The position numbers were made by a program, and so were the translations under genes. A DNA stretch of 40,892 nucleotides from an uncultured Clostridia bacterium (GTDB taxonomy: Bacteria; Bacillota; Clostridia; TANB77; CAG-508), in assembly GCA_947599825.1 (NCBI GenBank), contig CANQFS010000009.1, positions 1 to 40,892 on the forward strand, read 5' to 3'. Position 1 is the first letter of the stretch. Each line of letters begins with the position of its first letter. Below are positions 15,603 to 27,581 of this stretch, one piece after another. A model generated the notes under the pieces. It ran no database searches. It was given only the letters and a program-made list of their open reading frames with translations, and had not been told where the DNA came from.

Positions 15603-16328
15603 CTATTTTGATGCGATATAATATCCAACGCCTCTTTTTGTGATTAAGATTTTAGGATTTGAAGTGTCTTTTTCTATTTTTTCACGAATTCTTCTTACTG
15701 TAACATCTACCGTACGAATGTCTCCATAATATTCATAGCCCCATACCTTTTCTAAAAGGGTTTCTCTTGTGACTACTTGTCCTGGTTGGTTTGCTAAATA
15801 CCTTAATACTTCAAATTCTCTTAATGTTAAATCTATTACTTCTCCACGCACTTTTACTTCAAATTTGTTTAAATCTAGTGTTAAATCTCCTATGGTTATA
15901 ATGTTAGCTTCTGTTTTTGAGTCGCCATCTTCTATTTGCTTTTCGCTTATTTCTGCTTTTCTTAAATTTGCTTTTACTCTTGCTACTAATTCTCTTACGC
16001 TGAAAGGCTTTGTTATATAGTCATCTGCTCCTAGTTCTAACCCTAATATTTTGTCTATTTCTTCATCTTTTGCTGAAATCATAAGGATAGGAATATTTAA
16101 GGTTTGCCTTATTCTTTTACATACGGTAAGCCCATCTATTTTTGGAAGCATGATATCTAGTAATACTAAGTTCGGCTTTTGTTCTAATGCGATTCGTACT
16201 GCTTCTTCTCCGTCATTTGCTTCTAGTGTGTTATATCCTTCTTTTTGTAAGTTATAAACTAACATTTCTACAATGGTTTTTTCATCGTCTACAATGAGAA
16301 TTGTTTTTTTATCTAAATTTTCTTCCAT
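15603..16328 (-). CDS. walR: OmpR-family response regulator, WalR-like
   Basis: VDDEKTIVEML, GADDYITKPFS, YYGDIRTVDVTVRRIREKIE. Confidence 0.9.
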   Translation of the reverse strand: MEENLDKKTILIVDDEKTIVEMLVYNLQKEGYNTLEANDGEEAVRIALEQKPNLVLLDIMLPKIDGLTVCKRIRQTLNIPILMISAKDEEIDKILGLELGADDYITKPFSVRELVARVKANLRKAEISEKQIEDGDSKTEANIITIGDLTLDLNKFEVKVRGEVIDLTLREFEVLRYLANQPGQVVTRETLLEKVWGYEYYGDIRTVDVTVRRIREKIEKDTSNPKILITKRGVGYYIASK

Positions 16329-16465: not shown

Positions 16466-19400
16466 TTATTCAGCTTCTACTGTTTCTTCTTGGCTTTCTT
16501 CTACTTCTTCCTCATTTGCTTGTGTTTCTTCTTGTTCTGTACTAATATGAGTATTTCTATACTTATTTAGTCCAGTTCCTGCAGGGATTAACTTACCAAT
16601 AATAACGTTTTCTTTTAGTCCAATTAACTCATCTACTTTACCTTTAATTGCTGCTTCTGTTAATACTCTTGTTGTCTCTTGGAAAGATGCTGCAGATAAG
16701 AAGCTATCTGTTGCAAGTGAAGCTTTTGTAATTCCAAGTAAAATACGTTTGCCTGTAGCTGGGCGTTTGCCTTCTGCAATTGCTTGATTATTGATATCTT
16801 CAAATTCATACATATCAACTAATGAGCCTGCAAACATATTAGTGTCTCCGTTATCTTCTACTCTTACTTTCTTAAGCATTTGTCTACCAATAACTTCAAT
16901 GTGTTTATCGTTGATATCAACACCTTGGTTACGATATACTTTTTGTACTTCTTGTACTAAGTAATTATAAACTCCGTCTGGACCTTTAATTGCAAGTAAT
17001 TCATTAGGGTTAATAGATCCTTCTGTTAGTGGCCATCCTGCTTTTACTTCGTCTCCTTCTTTTACTCTTAGTTTTGAGCCAAATGGAATGACGTAAGATT
17101 TACTATCATCTTTTGAAGTAACAACAACTGTTTTTCTCTTCTTGTCTTCTTCAATTTTAACTTTACCGTCAATTTCTGTAATAATTGCAAGTCCCTTTGG
17201 TTTTCTTGCTTCGAATAATTCCTCAACTCTAGGAAGACCTTGTGTAATGTCGGCAACACCAGCAACACCACCAGAGTGGATAGTTCTCATTGTAAGCTGT
17301 GTACCAGGCTCACCAATAGATTGCGCTGCTATAATACCAACTGTTTCACCAATATTTACTTCTTCACGACTAGCTAGACCCATACCATAGCATTTTGAAC
17401 ATACACCGTTTTTAGTTCTACAACCAAATACTGAACGTACTGCTACTTCTTCGATGCCTGCTTCTACTATTTTGTCTGCTATTTTGTCGTTAATCATTGT
17501 ATTGGTATCTACAATTACTTCTTTTGTTTGTGGATTTATAATATCTTCTAATGGATAGCGTCCAATTAATCTTTCTTGTAAAGTTTCAATTACTTGGTTT
17601 CCATCTTTAATAGCAGATAGTGTAATTCCATCATGTGTTCCACAATCATGTTCTCTTACGATTATATCTTGTGAAACGTCAACTAATCTTCTGGTTAAGT
17701 AACCAGAGTCTGCTGTTCTTAATGCTGTATCTGATAAACCTTTACGAGCACCATGGGCAGAAATGAAATATTCTAGTGCATCTAGTCCTTCACGGAATGA
17801 TGATTTTATAGGAATTTCAACTGTTTTACCAGTTGTACTTGCCATAAGTCCACGCATACCTGCAATTTGTTTTAATTGGTCTAAGTTACCACGAGCACCT
17901 GAGTCTGACATCATAAATACTGGGTTTAATTGTGTGAAGTTTTCTTTCATAGCATCTTTTACTTCGTCTGTTGCGCTTTCCCAAATTTTGATAACAGATT
18001 GATATCTTTCATCTTCAGTAATTAAACCACGTCTATATTTCTTTAATACGTCGTCTACTTGTTCTTGTGCTTTTGCTAAGATTTCTTTCTTTTCTTCTGG
18101 CACTTTTACGTCGTCAATTGAAACTGTAATACCACCTGTTGTAGAATATTTGAAACCAGTTGCTTTAATGTAGTCTAGAAGTTCTGCAGAACGATTTAAA
18201 CCATATTGGTTAATGCTCTTTTCTACAATTTTTCCTAGTTTTTTCTTATTAACTACAAAGTTAATTTCTGGCTCGAATTCGTTTTCAGGGTTTGTTCTAT
18301 CTACAAAGCCTAAATCTTGTGGAATTCCTTTATTGTATATAATTCTTCCTACTGTTGTTTGTACTTTTTTATGTTTTTCATTGCCTTCTTCGTCTTTTTT
18401 ACTCATACGAACGAAGATTTTAGCATGCATTCCAACTTCTTTATTTTCATATGCAATTATTGCTTCTTCTGGAGATGAGAAGTAGTTTCCTTCTCCCTTT
18501 TCTCCTTCTACTTCCATTGTTAAGTAGTAACTTCCTAAAATCATATCTTGGGTAGGAACTGTTACTGGCTTACCATCTTGTGGTTTTAGTAGGTTGTTTA
18601 CAGATAGCATTAAATATCTTGCTTCTGCTTGTGCTTCTGGTGATAATGGAACGTGAATTGCCATTTGGTCACCATCGAAGTCAGCGTTGAATGCAGTACA
18701 TACTAATGGGTGTAATTTGATTGCTCTACCTTCTACTAATACTGGTTCAAATGCTTGAATTCCAAGTCTATGTAGTGTTGGAGCACGGTTTAGCATAACT
18801 GGGTGATCTTTTATAACGTCTTCTAGTATATCCCATACTTCTGGACGTAGTCTTTCTACCATTCTTTTTGCATTTTTAATATTGTGTGCTAAGCCTCTTC
18901 CTACTAATTCTTTCATTACAAATGGTTTGAATAATTCTACTGCCATTTCTTTTGGAAGACCGCATTGATATAATTTTAATTCTGGTCCTACTACGATAAC
19001 TGAACGTCCAGAGTAGTCAACACGTTTTCCAAGTAAGTTTTGACGGAAACGTCCTTGTTTTCCTTTTAACATATCTGATAAAGATTTTAAAGGTCTGTTT
19101 CCAGCACCTGTAACAGGACGACCACGTCTTGAGTTGTCAATTAGTGCGTCTACTGATTCTTGAAGCATTCTTTTTTCGTTTCTTTTTATGATTTCTGGTG
19201 CTCCAAGTTCAATTAGTCTTTTTAAACGATTGTTTCTATTAATAACTCTTCTGTATAAGTCATTTAAGTCAGATGTTGCAAATCTACCACCATCTAATTG
19301 TACCATTGGTCTGATTTCTGGTGGGATAACAGGAACTACATTCATAATCATCCATTCTGGTCTGTTTCCAGATAGTCTGAAAGATTCTACTGTATCTAAT

Positions 19401-20029
19401 CTTTTGATTAGTTTTGCTTTCTTTTGCTCACTAGCTCCTTCTAATTCTTTCTTTAATTTTGCAGATAGTTTGTCTAAATCAATTTCTTTTAATAATTTTT
19501 CTAGTGCTTCTGCTCCCATTTCTGCTTTGAAGCTTCCGCTTCCGTATTTTTCAACTGCTTCATGATATTCTTTTTCTGTTAATACTTGGCATTTCATTAG
19601 TCCTGAAGTACCTTTGTCTACTACAATATATGATGCAAAATATACGATTTTCTCTAAGTTTCTTGGTGAGATGTCTAACATTAAAGCAATTCTACTTGGG
19701 ATTCCTTTGAAATACCAAATGTGTGCTACTGGAGCAGCAAGCTCAATATGTCCCATTCTTTCACGTCTTACTTTTGATTTTGTTACTTCTACTCCACAAC
19801 GATCGCAGACAATGCCTTTGTATCTTACTCTTTTATATTTTCCACAATGGCATTCCCAATCTTTTGTTGGTCCAAATATTCTTTCACAGAATAGACCATC
19901 TTTTTCTGGCTTTAAGGTTCTATAGTTAATGGTTTCTGGTTTTTTTACCTCTCCTTTTGACCATTCTCTAATTTTTTCGTCTGATGCTAAGCCAATTTTA
20001 ATTTTATCAAACATTTCTAATTCGTCCAT
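16466..20029 (-). CDS. rpoC: RNA polymerase beta' subunit
   Basis: [38 protein letters not shown], full length 1187 aa. Confidence 0.99.
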
Positions 20030-20032
20030 TTA

Positions 20033-20056
20033 AATTAGAAGCCCCCTTCTCTAATT
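20033..20056 (-). promoter_or_regulatory. Hairpin enclosing the rpoC Shine-Dalgarno
   Basis: Minus strand AATTAGagAAG-GGGG-CTTCTAATT, 3 nt before ATG; SD AGAAGGGGG lies in stem/loop. Confidence 0.5.
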
Positions 20057-20070
20057 TTTTGGGTAATTTC

Positions 20071-20133
20071 AAAGTCTTTCAAAGAGGCTAACCCCCGCTC
20101 TTGCAAATTTTATTGTCGCCTCTTAAAGTCTTT
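20071..20133. repeat. 9-bp direct repeats (AAAGTCTTT) flanking a 7-bp inverted repeat (AAGAGGC/GCCTCTT)
   Basis: AAAGTCTTT at 20071-20079 and 20125-20133; AAGAGGC 20082-20088 / GCCTCTT 20118-20124. Confidence 0.7.
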
Positions 20134-20138
20134 GGAAT

Positions 20139-20483
20139 TTATTTAGTTAATTCTTTTTTAAAAAATTTTTTTATAATTGGAATATCTTCAACAGCTGTAT
20201 AGAAAATTTTACTTGAATCCATTTTTCCATAACCATGTGCAAATCGATTTCTCATTCCTCTAATTGCATTCCAATTTATTTCATTTTTCGTTTTTTCTAA
20301 ATATTCATCTGTTAAGTGATTTGCGAGTTCTCCTATTTGAAATATTTTCATAGAAAGTGAATCTTTATAATCATTATCTTGTTTGAACTTTTCTATGTCA
20401 TTTCCAAAACGATTTATGGTTTTTTCAATTTCATCACAATATTTTAGCATGTGCTTTAATATTGTAATATCTCTATTATCCAT
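20139..20483 (-). CDS. hepT: HEPN domain protein, HepT/DUF86-like putative RNase toxin
   Basis: RNRFAHGY = RX4HXY HEPN motif; ATG at 20483 overlaps the MNT stop by 8 nt. Confidence 0.88.
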   Translation of the reverse strand: MDNRDITILKHMLKYCDEIEKTINRFGNDIEKFKQDNDYKDSLSMKIFQIGELANHLTDEYLEKTKNEINWNAIRGMRNRFAHGYGKMDSSKIFYTAVEDIPIIKKFFKKELTK

Positions 20484-20805
20484 ATATAACCACTCTTTCT
20501 TTTTTAATCGTATCATAAAATTCTTTATCTATTTCATCAATACTACTCTCTTCAAAGCACTCTTCTTCAATTAAATCTACTTCTTTATTTAACGCTTGTT
20601 TTAACGCTTCCAAAATAGCTCCAATAATTAGTAAACTTTTAATATTTTTAGCTACTATAATGATATCAATATCACTATTTTCATTATAATCTCCTCGTGC
20701 ATAAGAGCCAAAAACATAAGCTTTTTCAACGCCATATTCTTTAAATATTGGGCTTGTTAATTCTTTTATTTTAGTAATAGCCTGTTGTTTTTCTAGGTTT
20801 TCCAT
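20476..20805 (-). CDS. mntA: Minimal nucleotidyltransferase, MntA-like putative antitoxin
   Basis: GSYARGDYNENSDID = exact GSX10DXD motif; SD AGGGAGG; starts about 20 nt after the rpoB stop. Confidence 0.9.
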   Translation of the reverse strand: MENLEKQQAITKIKELTSPIFKEYGVEKAYVFGSYARGDYNENSDIDIIIVAKNIKSLLIIGAILEALKQALNKEVDLIEEECFEESSIDEIDKEFYDTIKKERVVIYG

Positions 20806-20824
20806 AGGCTTTCCTCCCTAAATT

Positions 20825-23800
20825 TTACTCTAGCCCATCATTGTCTAAATTGTCTTCTGCTAAGTCTGTATCGAAAATAGAATCATCATCTTCATCATCT
20901 AAATCTGCAAATAATTCATCTTCGTCGTCAGTGTCTAAAAGCATTTCCTCTGTATCTTCATCAGCTTCAATGTAACTATCTTCTAGTTCACTTTCATCTA
21001 ACATATTTTCACCTAATTTTGCTTCTTCATAGTCAATTCCTTCGTCTATATGTTCTTTTAATTCTAGTTCTTGGTTATCCTCTGAGTATAAACGAACATC
21101 TAGTCCTAATGCTTGAAGTTCTTTTACTAATACTTTGAATCCTTCTGGAACACCTGGCTCTGGAACGTTTTCACCTTTAACAATTGCCTCATATGTTTTT
21201 ACACGTCCTACAACATCATCTGATTTTACAGTAAGCATTTCTTGAAGTGTGTATGCTGCACCATAAGCCTCTAATGCCCAAACTTCCATTTCTCCGAAAC
21301 GTTGTCCACCAAATTGTGCTTTACCTCCTAAAGGTTGTTGTGTAACTAGTGAGTATGGTCCAGTTGAACGAGCGTGGATTTTGTCATCTACTAAGTGGTG
21401 TAGTTTTAACATATACATAACACCAACGGTAACTGGGTTGTCGAATTCTTCACCTGTACGTCCGTCGTGTAAAATTGCTTTTCCATCTTCACGAAGTCCG
21501 GCTTGTTTTAATAATTCTTTAATTTCTTCATCTGTTGCACCATCAAATACTGGCGTTGCAACCTTCCAGCCTAATGCTTTTGCTGCCATACCTAAGTGTA
21601 CTTCTAGTACTTGACCTAAGTTCATACGAGATGGTATACCTTGTGGGTTAAGTACAATGTCTACTGGAGTTCCGTCTTCTAAGAATGGCATATCTTCTAC
21701 TGGTAGAATTCTTGAAATAACACCTTTGTTACCATGACGTCCGGCCATTTTATCACCAACAGAAATTTTTCTCTTTGTTGCAATATAGCAACGAATTACT
21801 TGGTTTACACCTGGGCCTAATTCATCTGAATTGTCTCTTGTGAAGATTTTTACATCTACTATGGTTCCTGCTTCTCCATGTGGTACTCTTAAAGATGTAT
21901 CTCTAACTTCTCTTGCTTTTTCTCCAAAGATAGCACGAAGTAATCTTTCTTCTGCTGTAAGCTCGGTTTCTCCTTTTGGTGTTACTTTTCCAACTAGGAT
22001 ATCTCCTGGTCTTACTTCTGCACCAATACGAATAATTCCGTTTTCATCTAGGTCTTTTAAACTGTCATCTCCTACGTTTGGAATGTCTCTTGTAATTTCT
22101 TCTGGGCCTAATTTTGTGTCTCTACATTCGCAATCATATTCTTCTATATGGATAGATGTATAAACATCTTCTTTTACTAATCTTTCACTAATTAGTACAG
22201 CATCTTCGTAGTTGTAACCTTCCCATGTAGTGAAGGCAATTAGCACGTTTCTTCCTAGTGCCATTTCTCCATCTTTTGTAGATGGTCCATCTGCTAGGAT
22301 ATCTCCTTTGCTAACTTTTTCTCCTCTTGTTACTACTGGTCTTTGGTTAATGCATGTACCACCATTAGTTCTTTTGAATTTACGAAGTCTGTAAGTGTCT
22401 ATTTCATTTTTCTTATTGCGTACTTTGATTTCGTCTGCTGTTACTTTTTCTACTACACCATCATTTATTGCAGTAACAGTAATTCCAGAGTCTTTAGCGG
22501 CTCTATATTCAATTCCTGTTCCTACTATAGGTGCTTCTGGCATTAAAAGTGGAACGGCTTGACGTTGCATGTTAGAGCCCATTAGAGAACGTTTTACGTC
22601 GTCATGCTCTAGGAAAGGAATCATTGCTGCTGCAACAGAAACTAATTCTTTTGGTGAAACGTCTATATAATCTACTTGACTGCTATCTACCTCTGTGATT
22701 TCAGATTTATGACGTACACGAATTCTTTTATTTACGAATTTTCCGTCTTTATCTAGTGGTTCTGATGCTTGTGCAATAATGTAATTGTCTTCTTCGTCTG
22801 CTGGCATATATTCTACTATATCTGTTACTTTTCCTGTTTCTTTATCTACTTTACGATATGGTGTTTCAATGAAGCCATATTCGTTGATAATAGCAAAAGA
22901 TGATAATGCAGAAATAAGTCCAATGTTTGGTCCTTCTGGAGATTCTACTGGGCAAAGTCTTCCATAGTGAGTATAGTGAATATCACGAACCTCGAAACCT
23001 GCTCTTTCTCTAGATAAACCACCAGGTCCTAATGCTGAAATTCTTCTTTTATGTGTAAGTTCTGATAATGGGTTAGTTTGGTCCATAAATTGTGATAATT
23101 GTGAACTTCCAAAGAACTCACGAATAGATGATGTAATTGGTTTTGTGTTAATTAATGTTTGTGGTGTTACAATATCTAGGTCTTGAATTGTCATTCTTTC
23201 ACGAACTACTCTTTCTAGTCTTGTTAAACCAATTCTAAATTGATTTTGTAATAATTCACCAACACAACGGATACGTCTATTTCCTAAATGGTCAATATCA
23301 TCTACATTTCCGATTCCATGATCTAGGTTAAATAAATAACTAATAGAACCAATAATGTCTTCGTTTGTTACGTGTTTTGGTATTAATTCTTCTTTTCTTT
23401 CTTTTAATACTTTATGTAAGTCTTTTTTGTCTGTGGTCTCTAAAATTGATTTTAATACTTCATAATTTACTTCTTCTTTGAAGTGTAAGTCTGAAATATC
23501 AACATCTGTAACAAATTTATGAATGTTAACTGTACCATTTCCAATAATTCTTACTTTACTGTCGTTTACTTTTACATCTACAATGTTAATTCCTGTGTTT
23601 TGGATATCTTCTGCTACTTCTTTTGAAATAACAGTATCTTTTTCTACTAATACTTCTCCTGTTGATGGATCTATAATGTCTTCAAATGCTACTTTTCCAG
23701 CAATTCTAGATGCTAGACTTAATTTTTTGTTAAATTTGTAACGTCCAACTTTTGCTAAGTCATATCTTCTGTCATCGAAGAATAAACCATTGAATAAGTT

Positions 23801-24553
23801 TCTTGCTGCATCAACGGTTGGTAATTCTCCTGGTCTTAATTTTTTGTAGATTTCAATTAAGGCTTCGTCTTGTGTTTTTATAGTGTCTTTTTGAATAGTT
23901 GCCATTAATTTTGGCTCTTCGCCAAATAAAGCAATCATTTGCTCGTCTGTAACTAAACCAATTGCTCTTAAAAGGCAAGTAACTGGTATTTTTCTTGTTC
24001 TATCTACTCTTGCCCAAAATACGTCGTTTCCGTCTGTTTCATATTCAATCCATGCACCACGAATTGGCATAACAGTAGATGTAAATATTTTCTTTCCTGT
24101 TTTGTCAAATTCAGAAGCATAGTAGCAACCTGGAGAACGTACTAATTGGCTGACTACAACTCTTTCTGCACCATTAATAATGAAGGTTCCACTTTCGGTC
24201 ATTAATGGGAAGTCTCCTAAATAAATTTCTTGCTCTTTAATTTCTCCTGTTTCACGGTTAATTAGACGTACTTTTACATGTAATCTTGTAGAGTACGTAG
24301 CATCTCTTTCTTTGGCTTCTTCTACGCTGTATTTGGTTTTGTCTTCCATATAATAGTCGAAAAATTCAAGAACTAAATTTCCAGAATAGTCTACGATTGG
24401 GGAAATATCTTGCAATACTTCGCCTAAACCCTCTTCTACAAACCAATCGTAAGAGTCTTTTTGGACTTTAATTAAGTTTGGCATTTCAATAAAATCGCCA
24501 ATTTTTGCAAACGTTTTACGTGTGCATTTTTCGTGTTTGATATCTTTTACCAA
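20825..24553 (-). CDS. rpoB: RNA polymerase beta subunit
   Basis: [62 protein letters not shown] start preceded by AGGGGG. Confidence 0.99.
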
Positions 24554-25045: not shown

Positions 25046-25075
25046 AGTATAACCTATTTCCGTAGGGCTTGTCAA
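25046..25075 (-). promoter_or_regulatory. Sigma-A type promoter upstream of rpoB
   Basis: TTGACA (25075-25070), 18-bp spacer, TATACT (25051-25046). Confidence 0.7.
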
Positions 25076-25193: not shown

Positions 25194-25487
25194 TTAAAGA
25201 TTTTTTATTATCATACTAAAAGATAAATCTATTATGATAAAACTTAATCCTATTAATATTGCCGGTATAACTATTTCTCTTATTGTTATTGTTGGTGTAC
25301 TTATACCTATATAAAAAACTAAAATTTCTGTCATTGCTACAAGAAGTATTGTACTCCACTTTCTCATTTTAGTTTTTTTTACAGTTTTATTTTTCTTCGA
25401 TGGTGCATGACTTATAGCCCAAAAAATAAAGGAAATTACCATAACCAAAAAAACAAATGAAATAAGAATCATCTTTACACTAAGCAT
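25194..25487 (-). CDS. Hypothetical small membrane protein with 3 predicted TM segments
   Basis: 97-aa hydrophobic ORF in an intergenic slot, followed by a terminator. Confidence 0.6.
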   Translation of the reverse strand: MLSVKMILISFVFLVMVISFIFWAISHAPSKKNKTVKKTKMRKWSTILLVAMTEILVFYIGISTPTITIREIVIPAILIGLSFIIIDLSFSMIIKNL

Positions 25488-25608
25488 AAATCTTCCTCCT
25501 TAAAATATTTATTTTACTATTGTTGTCTATATATACCTGAAAAACAGGAATTAAAAATTTATATTATCATTATAATTCATTTTATGCAATTTTGCAAGGT
25601 TAGCATTA

Positions 25609-26292
25609 CTATTTTTCACTATATCCAAATTTTTGCATTCTTTCTTTTTCTTTTTTAGATAATTTTTCAAAAAATTCTGCTAATGCTGTTATATCTTGAT
25701 TATTTAAAAATTCAAAATATTGTACTCTATCATCTTTTGATATAACAATTGGACTTACATTGTTTTTTATCAACTCATAATTTAATAATAGTCTACCAGT
25801 TCTTCCATTTCCATCTTCAAAAGGGTGTATCTTTTCAAATTCAATGTGATATTTAGCAATTTTAGAAAAAACTTCTTGTCCATCATTATTATAATTATAT
25901 ATAAAGTAATTCATTAAATTTGGTATTTGCTTTGCTTCTGGTGGAATATACTCAGTACCATTAATAAAAACTTGTACTTTTCTATATCCTTCACTATCCT
26001 TTATGTCTTTATTTATTGTTTCATTTAGATTTTTTATAAATCTTTCGTCAAAATCTTTACCCATTTTTAAATTTTCAAAAACAATTTCTAATGCTTTCTT
26101 ATGATTAATAGCTTCATATATTTCTCTTGGCTCTCTTCCTTGTATTTTGAAACTATTATCATTATATAAAATAGCATAAGTTTCAGCATAAGTTAAAGTG
26201 CTTCCTTCTATTCCGTTCGAATGATATGTACTTCTTGTAATTAAATCTTTTAAATATTCTTTATTATTTAGAATGAACTCTAAAATTGTCAT
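25609..26292 (-). CDS. Fic/DOC family protein (AMPylase-like) with N-terminal inhibitory motif
   Basis: HPFEDGNGRTGR (HPFX[D/E]GNGRXXR); SNGIEG matches (S/T)XXXE(G/N); SD AAGGAG before MTILEF. Confidence 0.93.
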   Translation of the reverse strand: MTILEFILNNKEYLKDLITRSTYHSNGIEGSTLTYAETYAILYNDNSFKIQGREPREIYEAINHKKALEIVFENLKMGKDFDERFIKNLNETINKDIKDSEGYRKVQVFINGTEYIPPEAKQIPNLMNYFIYNYNNDGQEVFSKIAKYHIEFEKIHPFEDGNGRTGRLLLNYELIKNNVSPIVISKDDRVQYFEFLNNQDITALAEFFEKLSKKEKERMQKFGYSEK

Positions 26293-26309
26293 TATTTTCT
26301 CCTTAAACT

Positions 26310-27581
26310 TTACTCTACTTTTTCTCCACAATTACCACAGAATTTAGCGTTCTTTTCTAGTTTTGAGTTACATTTTTTACAGAATTTTGGTTTTGGATTT
26401 CCACAATTTGCACAGAAGTTTCCTTCGTTTTCTGTTCCGCAATCGCATTTCCATTTGGTTGTTTCTGCTTTTTGTTCTTCATTTACTTGTGCACTTTCTA
26501 ATTGTGCCATATCTGCTTGCTCTTGTGATGATTGTTGTTTGTTTGCTTGCTCTGATGTCTTTACTTCTTGCTTACTTAAATCCATGCTACTTTTTTCTGT
26601 GTTTTGCCATACTCCTTGTACTGTTTGCCCCATTACATTTCCTGTTGACATATTCATCATTCCAATTCCCATAAAGCCATTTATGGCACCATTACTATTT
26701 TCTGCTGCACTTTTTACTGCTTCTGAATATGCTTCTACCATCTTGCCTTGTTGCATGTATGCATTTGAACTTAATTCATAATCGTCTATTTTCTTTTCTG
26801 ATTCATCATCTAATGTAACAGATTCTACTGCAAAACTATCTATTTTTATTCCTCTTTCACGAATTTTTTCGTCAAATACTTTTTCGTCCATCATTTGTCT
26901 AATTTCATCTGTTTGACTTGGCATTTCTAATACAGGTACTTTATAGTTACTTGTTCCTAGTTCATTTGTTACATTTTGAAATACTGCTAATACTTCACTT
27001 CTTAATTGTTCTACTAATTGTGATTTACGATATATATCTGCTGTTCCTGCAAGTTTTGTCATAAATAATGCTGGGTTCATTATGCTAAATGTATAAGTTC
27101 CAAAACATTTAATTTCTACTCTTAAAGGTGTAAGAGTGTTTGTCATTTGATTTGGAATTGGATGTGACCAATCTTGAAATGGAATTGGTGCAGGTGTTCC
27201 AAATTTGTTGTCAATAATTTCTTTTATATTAAAGAAAAATACGGCTTGCTCTTTTGCAGTTGCTCCATCAAATGTAAATCTTTGCCACATTTCTTTAAAT
27301 ACGGCTCCAAATTGTCCTCCGAAAAAAGATGGTGATGATGATTCATCAAAAGTATAAAATCCATCTTCTGCTGTTGCATCAATTACTCTACCATTATCAT
27401 AAATAACTGCACATTGTCCTGGTGCTACAATAATTGTACTTTTTTTGGTAATTACTCCCGTTTCTGTTGTTTTCTTTACCATTAAAACATCATTCGTCAT
27501 GTCATCACAACGAATTGCTTCCTTCCATTGATCATGTAAAGTGCTTCCTATTGCATCTTTAGCTGCTTTAATTAATCCCAT
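26310..27581 (-). CDS. SPFH-domain ('virion core protein'-like) protein with C-terminal zinc ribbons
   Basis: N-terminal SPFH-like region with VAPGQCAVIYDNGRV; C-terminal CDCGTENEGNFCANCGNPKPKFCKKCNSKLEKNAKFCGNCG. Confidence 0.85.
   Translation of the reverse strand: MGLIKAAKDAIGSTLHDQWKEAIRCDDMTNDVLMVKKTTETGVITKKSTIIVAPGQCAVIYDNGRVIDATAEDGFYTFDESSSPSFFGGQFGAVFKEMWQRFTFDGATAKEQAVFFFNIKEIIDNKFGTPAPIPFQDWSHPIPNQMTNTLTPLRVEIKCFGTYTFSIMNPALFMTKLAGTADIYRKSQLVEQLRSEVLAVFQNVTNELGTSNYKVPVLEMPSQTDEIRQMMDEKVFDEKIRERGIKIDSFAVESVTLDDESEKKIDDYELSSNAYMQQGKMVEAYSEAVKSAAENSNGAINGFMGIGMMNMSTGNVMGQTVQGVWQNTEKSSMDLSKQEVKTSEQANKQQSSQEQADMAQLESAQVNEEQKAETTKWKCDCGTENEGNFCANCGNPKPKFCKKCNSKLEKNAKFCGNCGEKVE

Follow-up and report, generated by a model that had tools for sequence, protein, structure and literature searches.

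Class I HEPN/MNT pairs are recognized by neighbouring PF01934 (or PF08780) and PF01909 domains with the motifs RX4HXY and GSX10DXD (PMC7641770). The closest system that we can name for the locus described here is HepT/MntA (SO_3166/SO_3165) of Shewanella oneidensis, a class I HEPN/MNT pair and type VII toxin-antitoxin system, in which MntA adds AMPs to the tyrosine of RX4HXY (PMC7641770). A related precedent concerns genomic position: the lysine operon of Thermus thermophilus HB8 holds an MNT-HEPN module that strain HB27 does not have (Makarova and colleagues, PMC2701414).

We analysed a window of 40,892 nt, which is an entire contig of a 1.53-Mb, 70-contig genome (G000) that was apparently assembled from a metagenome. 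Its named near relatives are uncultured Clostridia, several of them out of animal-gut studies. On the minus strand of the window, an MntA-like minimal nucleotidyltransferase gene (MNT, 20476-20805, 109 aa; the predicted antitoxin) and a HepT-like gene (HEPN, 20139-20483, 114 aa; the predicted RNase toxin) lie between the ORFs of rpoB (RNA polymerase beta subunit, 20825-24553, 1242 aa), immediately upstream, and rpoC (RNA polymerase beta' subunit, 16466-20029, 1187 aa), downstream. The first-pass annotation had placed the MNT ORF 19 nt past the rpoB stop (20825) on the same strand, with an 8-nt overlap into HEPN, and both were confirmed, the ATG at 20483 being the likely HEPN start; a second, upstream ATG at 20516 is also open. 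An SD-like GGGAGG is located just 5' of MNT, and 109 nt separate the HEPN stop (20139) from the rpoC start (20029). In this window, rpoB and rpoC are outside the usual ribosomal-protein cluster: the neighbours (15603-16328 and 25194-26331, minus strand) are ORFs for a small membrane protein and a Fic-like protein upstream of rpoB, and for a response regulator and a kinase downstream of rpoC.

Sequence, motifs, gene order and fold all support the HEPN/MNT (HepT-MntA-like) identification proposed at first. HEPN scored 62.1 bits against PF01934 (HepT-like; Pfam cut-off 23.5), and MNT scored 56.9 bits against PF01909 (cut-off 21) and 52.4 bits against PF18765. Both motifs were exact, as previously annotated: GSX10DXD in MNT reads GS-YARGDYNENS-DID, and RX4HXY in HEPN reads R-NRFA-H-G-Y. 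R78, H83 and Y85 were invariant among 13 HEPN homologues, which share a QIGEL signature, and G33, S34, D45 and D47 among nine MNT homologues. The NCBIfam equivalog cut-off of 60 bits was missed by both proteins (HepT_toxin NF047751, 26.3 bits; MntA_antitoxin NF047752, 45.2 bits), and the pair is therefore a divergent member of the broad class, outside the narrow equivalogs. PADLOC listed MNT under the candidate system PDC-S09. AlphaFold2 models were obtained with a pLDDT of 91.1 for HEPN and 89.6 for MNT. In the Foldseek search with the HEPN model, the first 23 PDB matches were all HepT/HEPN toxin chains (7bxo, 5yep, 6m6u, 7ae6 and others), with TM scores up to about 0.70 and probabilities up to 1.00, although with weak E-values (0.03 at best); the modelled fold is that of HepT. 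By the sequence criterion, the pair belongs to class I HEPN/MNT (HepT/MntA, type VII), with predicted toxin and antitoxin activities.

The Shewanella HepT/MntA system and the window pair thus have in common a PF01934 domain beside a PF01909 domain, RX4HXY, GSX10DXD and an arrangement as two small adjacent genes, and the best structural matches of the HEPN model are the solved structures of the Shewanella proteins. The two pairs share 12-18% identity over the aligned fold, and the window HEPN is shorter (114 aa). Unlike HepT/MntA, the window pair is located between rpoB and rpoC, and it is known here from its sequence and predicted fold.

The closest HEPN homologues (54-60% identity) were found in scattered genera of the same family, at unrelated loci and with MNT just upstream. 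Because the two genes also overlap in this order in the genomes of these relatives, the pair is not a chance ORF. One such MNT-HEPN pair (L296:1185-1878, plus strand, in G052) lies between gatA (PF01425, 439 bits) and gatB (PF02934, GatB_N, 416 bits), 5 nt before gatB; a related pair (L297) is located behind a gene that reads as gatB, and a more distant one (L316) has a response regulator on one side and a histidine kinase on the other. Judged by ORF heuristics rather than gene calls, 9 of 48 pairs have neighbouring ORFs on the same strand no more than 200 nt away in both directions. Phage and plasmid records, too, contain homologues. Degraded copies exist as well, such as a HEPN fragment with stops in genome G183, and a shortened PemK-like ORF (L140) is a comparable remnant; such cases might suggest that the window pair is a decayed or inert passenger whose toxin or antitoxin is no longer active. 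We consider this very unlikely, as neither the MNT nor the HEPN frame is interrupted and every catalytic residue of the motifs is preserved.

We then compared the locus with G016, the closest relative in the genus, whose RpoC N-terminus is 99.6% identical to that of G000. In G016, rpoB and rpoC are separated by 130 nt with continuous flanks and no MNT-HEPN pair. On the rpoB side, 20821-24592 matches G016 DNA contiguously at 96.2%, and on the rpoC side, 17759-20151 matches at 96.6%. In the DNA alignment, 669 nt are private to G000 and 3 nt to G016; in other words, a 669-nt segment (20152-20820, minus strand) stands in place of 3 nt of the ancestral spacer. The last three HEPN codons and the stop (TTA ACT AAA TAA) are ancestral spacer sequence already present in G016. 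The genes of the first-pass annotation therefore stand, but its span of the feature needs revision, since the inserted DNA is 20152-20820 and the 3' end of HEPN is native spacer. The GC content of the insert is 26-27%, compared with mostly 33-40% in the adjoining rpoB. Neither end-to-end terminal inverted repeats nor a transposase ORF were detected in the 669-nt insert, which therefore lacks these marks of cargo borne by a transposon.

The pair is known from a single assembled genome, and a chimeric join during metagenome assembly into 70 contigs could in principle have placed an MNT-HEPN fragment between rpoB and rpoC. However, both flanks run on at 96% identity to G016 within one contig with a loss of just 3 nt, native spacer codons close the HEPN frame, and two independent chimeric joins would be needed; an artefact is extremely unlikely. 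The insertion of MNT-HEPN between rpoB and rpoC is recent, because the empty site in G016 is precise, and it spared the conserved hairpin (described below) and the ribosome-binding site before rpoC. It resembles the Thermus HB8 module, which is likewise a recent, strain-specific MNT-HEPN insertion in a housekeeping operon (PMC2701414), and differs from it in operon and host lineage, the target being the rpoB-rpoC junction. Taken with the loci of the relatives, the Thermus case means that insertion of such modules into housekeeping operons is already known.

Transcription of the pair was considered from the sequence. No terminator-like site was found at 19600-21300, in agreement with the previous statement that no terminator lies between rpoB and rpoC. 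Promoter-like sites were not clearly more frequent than in shuffled sequences (11 versus 8.0 ± 2.7); weak ones within MNT and HEPN could permit partly independent expression. Inspection by eye of the sequence 5' of rpoB gave a sigma-70 promoter candidate for its transcript (TTGACA, 18 nt, TATACT; 25046-25075, minus strand). The shared strand, the 19-nt gap, the lack of a terminator at this site and the candidate promoter make co-transcription with rpoB likely, and the pair probably lacks its own promoter and depends on read-through from that of rpoB.

We surveyed rpoB-rpoC junctions at 172 distinct loci, drawn from the GTDB family of the window genome and from near relatives, and in 59 other Clostridia. 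MNT-HEPN was present at one of the 172, that of G000, and at none of the 59. The gene order rpoB-MNT-HEPN-rpoC is accordingly not conserved in relatives. The family spacer is long (median 154 nt, largest 1448 nt, 172 loci) compared with that of other Clostridia (median 36 nt, maximum 124 nt, n = 59), and the gap was 12-47 nt in seven genomes from sister families within the order. Open frames of about 2500 aa in relatives had raised the candidate of an rpoB-rpoC fusion, which was rejected: the rpoB stop is present in the genomes whose junction was read, and such frames go with rpoB-rpoC gaps that are multiples of three.

Other genes also occupy the junction, on the same strand. In another genus of the family, a PemK/MazF-like gene (PF02452, 26.2 bits; cut-off 23.1) was found at two loci (L102 in G067, and L158), and the shortened PemK-like ORF mentioned above is a remnant at the junction of G165. 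This gene shares the junction, the strand and a position upstream of the same hairpin with the window pair. It is RNase-toxin-like too, but belongs to an unrelated toxin family, consists of a single ORF and occurs in more than one genome. A BNR-repeat gene (BNR_2, PF13088, 108.9 bits; 340 aa; L052:1372-2394, minus strand) is located at the junction of G021, and a Y1 transposase-like ORF (Y1_Tnp, PF01797, 24.7 bits) at that of L254 in G052; the latter ORF itself bears REP-like GTAGGGGCG repeats. Two further ORFs, for which no Pfam match reached the cut-off, were also observed, as were many short insertions of repeats. Since cargo has been taken up repeatedly, the junction of this family is permissive, MNT-HEPN being one of several passengers. 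A literature search on the rpoB-rpoC spacer yielded only work on mycobacterial species typing, and titles, abstracts and retrieved passages on gene insertions in rpoBC contained none on this junction.

The first-pass annotation had proposed that the dose of the pair would track RNA polymerase (RNAP) expression and that the pair could give RNAP-linked growth control. In such a scheme, the toxin-antitoxin balance would report RNAP synthesis, and a drop in operon expression, for example from phage shut-off or an RNAP inhibitor, would free HEPN and arrest growth. The codirectional position 19 nt past rpoB with no terminator is consistent with it, as is a second RNase-toxin-like gene, PemK/MazF, at the junction in another genus. 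However, the pair occurs at only 1 of 172 junctions and is absent from the nearest relative G016, its closest homologues adjoin unrelated genes at other loci, and other cargo found at the junction has no relation to toxins. Neither the proposed dose link nor the growth control was supported by these results. Because rpoB-MNT-HEPN-rpoC is not conserved, we rejected RNAP-linked control as the main reading and regard it as very unlikely.

Between the HEPN stop and rpoC, the spacer holds a conserved hairpin RNA (20065-20139, minus strand; apical loop at about 20117-20089), which was not in the feature list of the first-pass annotation. In 133 of 146 family spacers of at least 80 nt (including L027, L033, L037 and L145), there is a hairpin whose conserved loop measures about 28 nt and approximates GACAAAAAGGAAUUGYNCAGCRGUGUA. 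The stem sequence turns over fully between loci, yet the stem strongly covaries. RNAalifold returned no structure for the full 133-row MAFFT alignment because the stems vary too much, and therefore arm swapping and a fixed-length subset were used. Folding energies averaged -16.4 kcal/mol for a locus's own arms versus -6.0 kcal/mol for arms swapped between loci, and own-arm pairing was better than the swapped mean in 133 of 133 loci, with the caveat that arms were picked beside the loop and the loci are related. In an ungapped subset of 23 sequences, 85.9% of cells pair, whereas shuffles reached 51.9% and slid controls no more than 54%, and 60 double changes were counted versus 25.6 ± 3.2; these figures are somewhat flattered, as sequences were chosen for the subset because their predicted stems are equally spaced, a choice that favours pairing. 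The swapped-arm test is independent of that choice.

No Rfam family matches the hairpin, and it was not seen in the sister families of the order. A hairpin model (R1) gave 13 matches in 60 family genomes, one each, and all those with a known rpoC position lie inside the rpoB-rpoC gap. R1 misses the divergent G000 copy in whole-genome scans, so the copy number in G000 is based on anatomy only. A possible second copy upstream of rpoB (R1, 21.6 bits, E 0.18) was rejected, as that stretch has no comparable hairpin fold. Downstream of the hairpin, at 20065-20029 on the minus strand, a small stem AAUUAGAG/CUUCUAAUU is predicted whose loop contains the likely rpoC Shine-Dalgarno sequence AAGGGGGC, in both the window genome and G016. 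Protein-coding cargo is upstream of the hairpin in 7 of 8 cases, counting the remnant; the hairpin was not found at the L254 junction with the Y1 transposase-like ORF. Titles, abstracts and retrieved passages on structured RNA upstream of rpoC likewise contained none on this junction. We infer that the hairpin may be a processing site or control element of the rpoC or RNA polymerase transcript. A broader proposal is that the family junction is a specialised, hairpin-marked site which repeatedly captures RNase toxins (HEPN/MNT in the window, PemK/MazF-like in another genus), so that toxin control would track RNAP synthesis, while processing or translational control at the hairpin would keep the toxin message apart from rpoC; we judge this very improbable.

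The explanation that we favour, and hold to be highly probable, is that a mobile class I HEPN/MNT pair was recently inserted codirectionally behind the rpoB stop and is read from the rpoB promoter without being tied to RNAP. The insertion site was available because the rpoB-rpoC spacer of the family is long. Read-through from the candidate rpoB promoter would provide the transcript, on which MNT would be translated first from its own GGGAGG site and HEPN next via the 8-nt overlap. By homology with HepT/MntA, MNT would AMPylate Y85 in the RX4HXY motif of HEPN and silence its RNase. Its maintenance would be due to addiction or selfish persistence and not to a role in regulating RNAP.

Few bacterial genes are paired as stably as rpoB and rpoC. 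Because this pairing is so stable, a toxin-antitoxin pair lodged between them is a striking example of hitchhiking in an operon, and the junction is an unusually conserved target for MNT-HEPN insertion. The toxin-antitoxin pair itself is ordinary; what is remarkable is its location. The case draws attention to a family of Clostridia whose rpoB-rpoC junction is long, repeatedly takes cargo and holds a hairpin outside Rfam, and this side finding may matter more than the MNT-HEPN pair itself.
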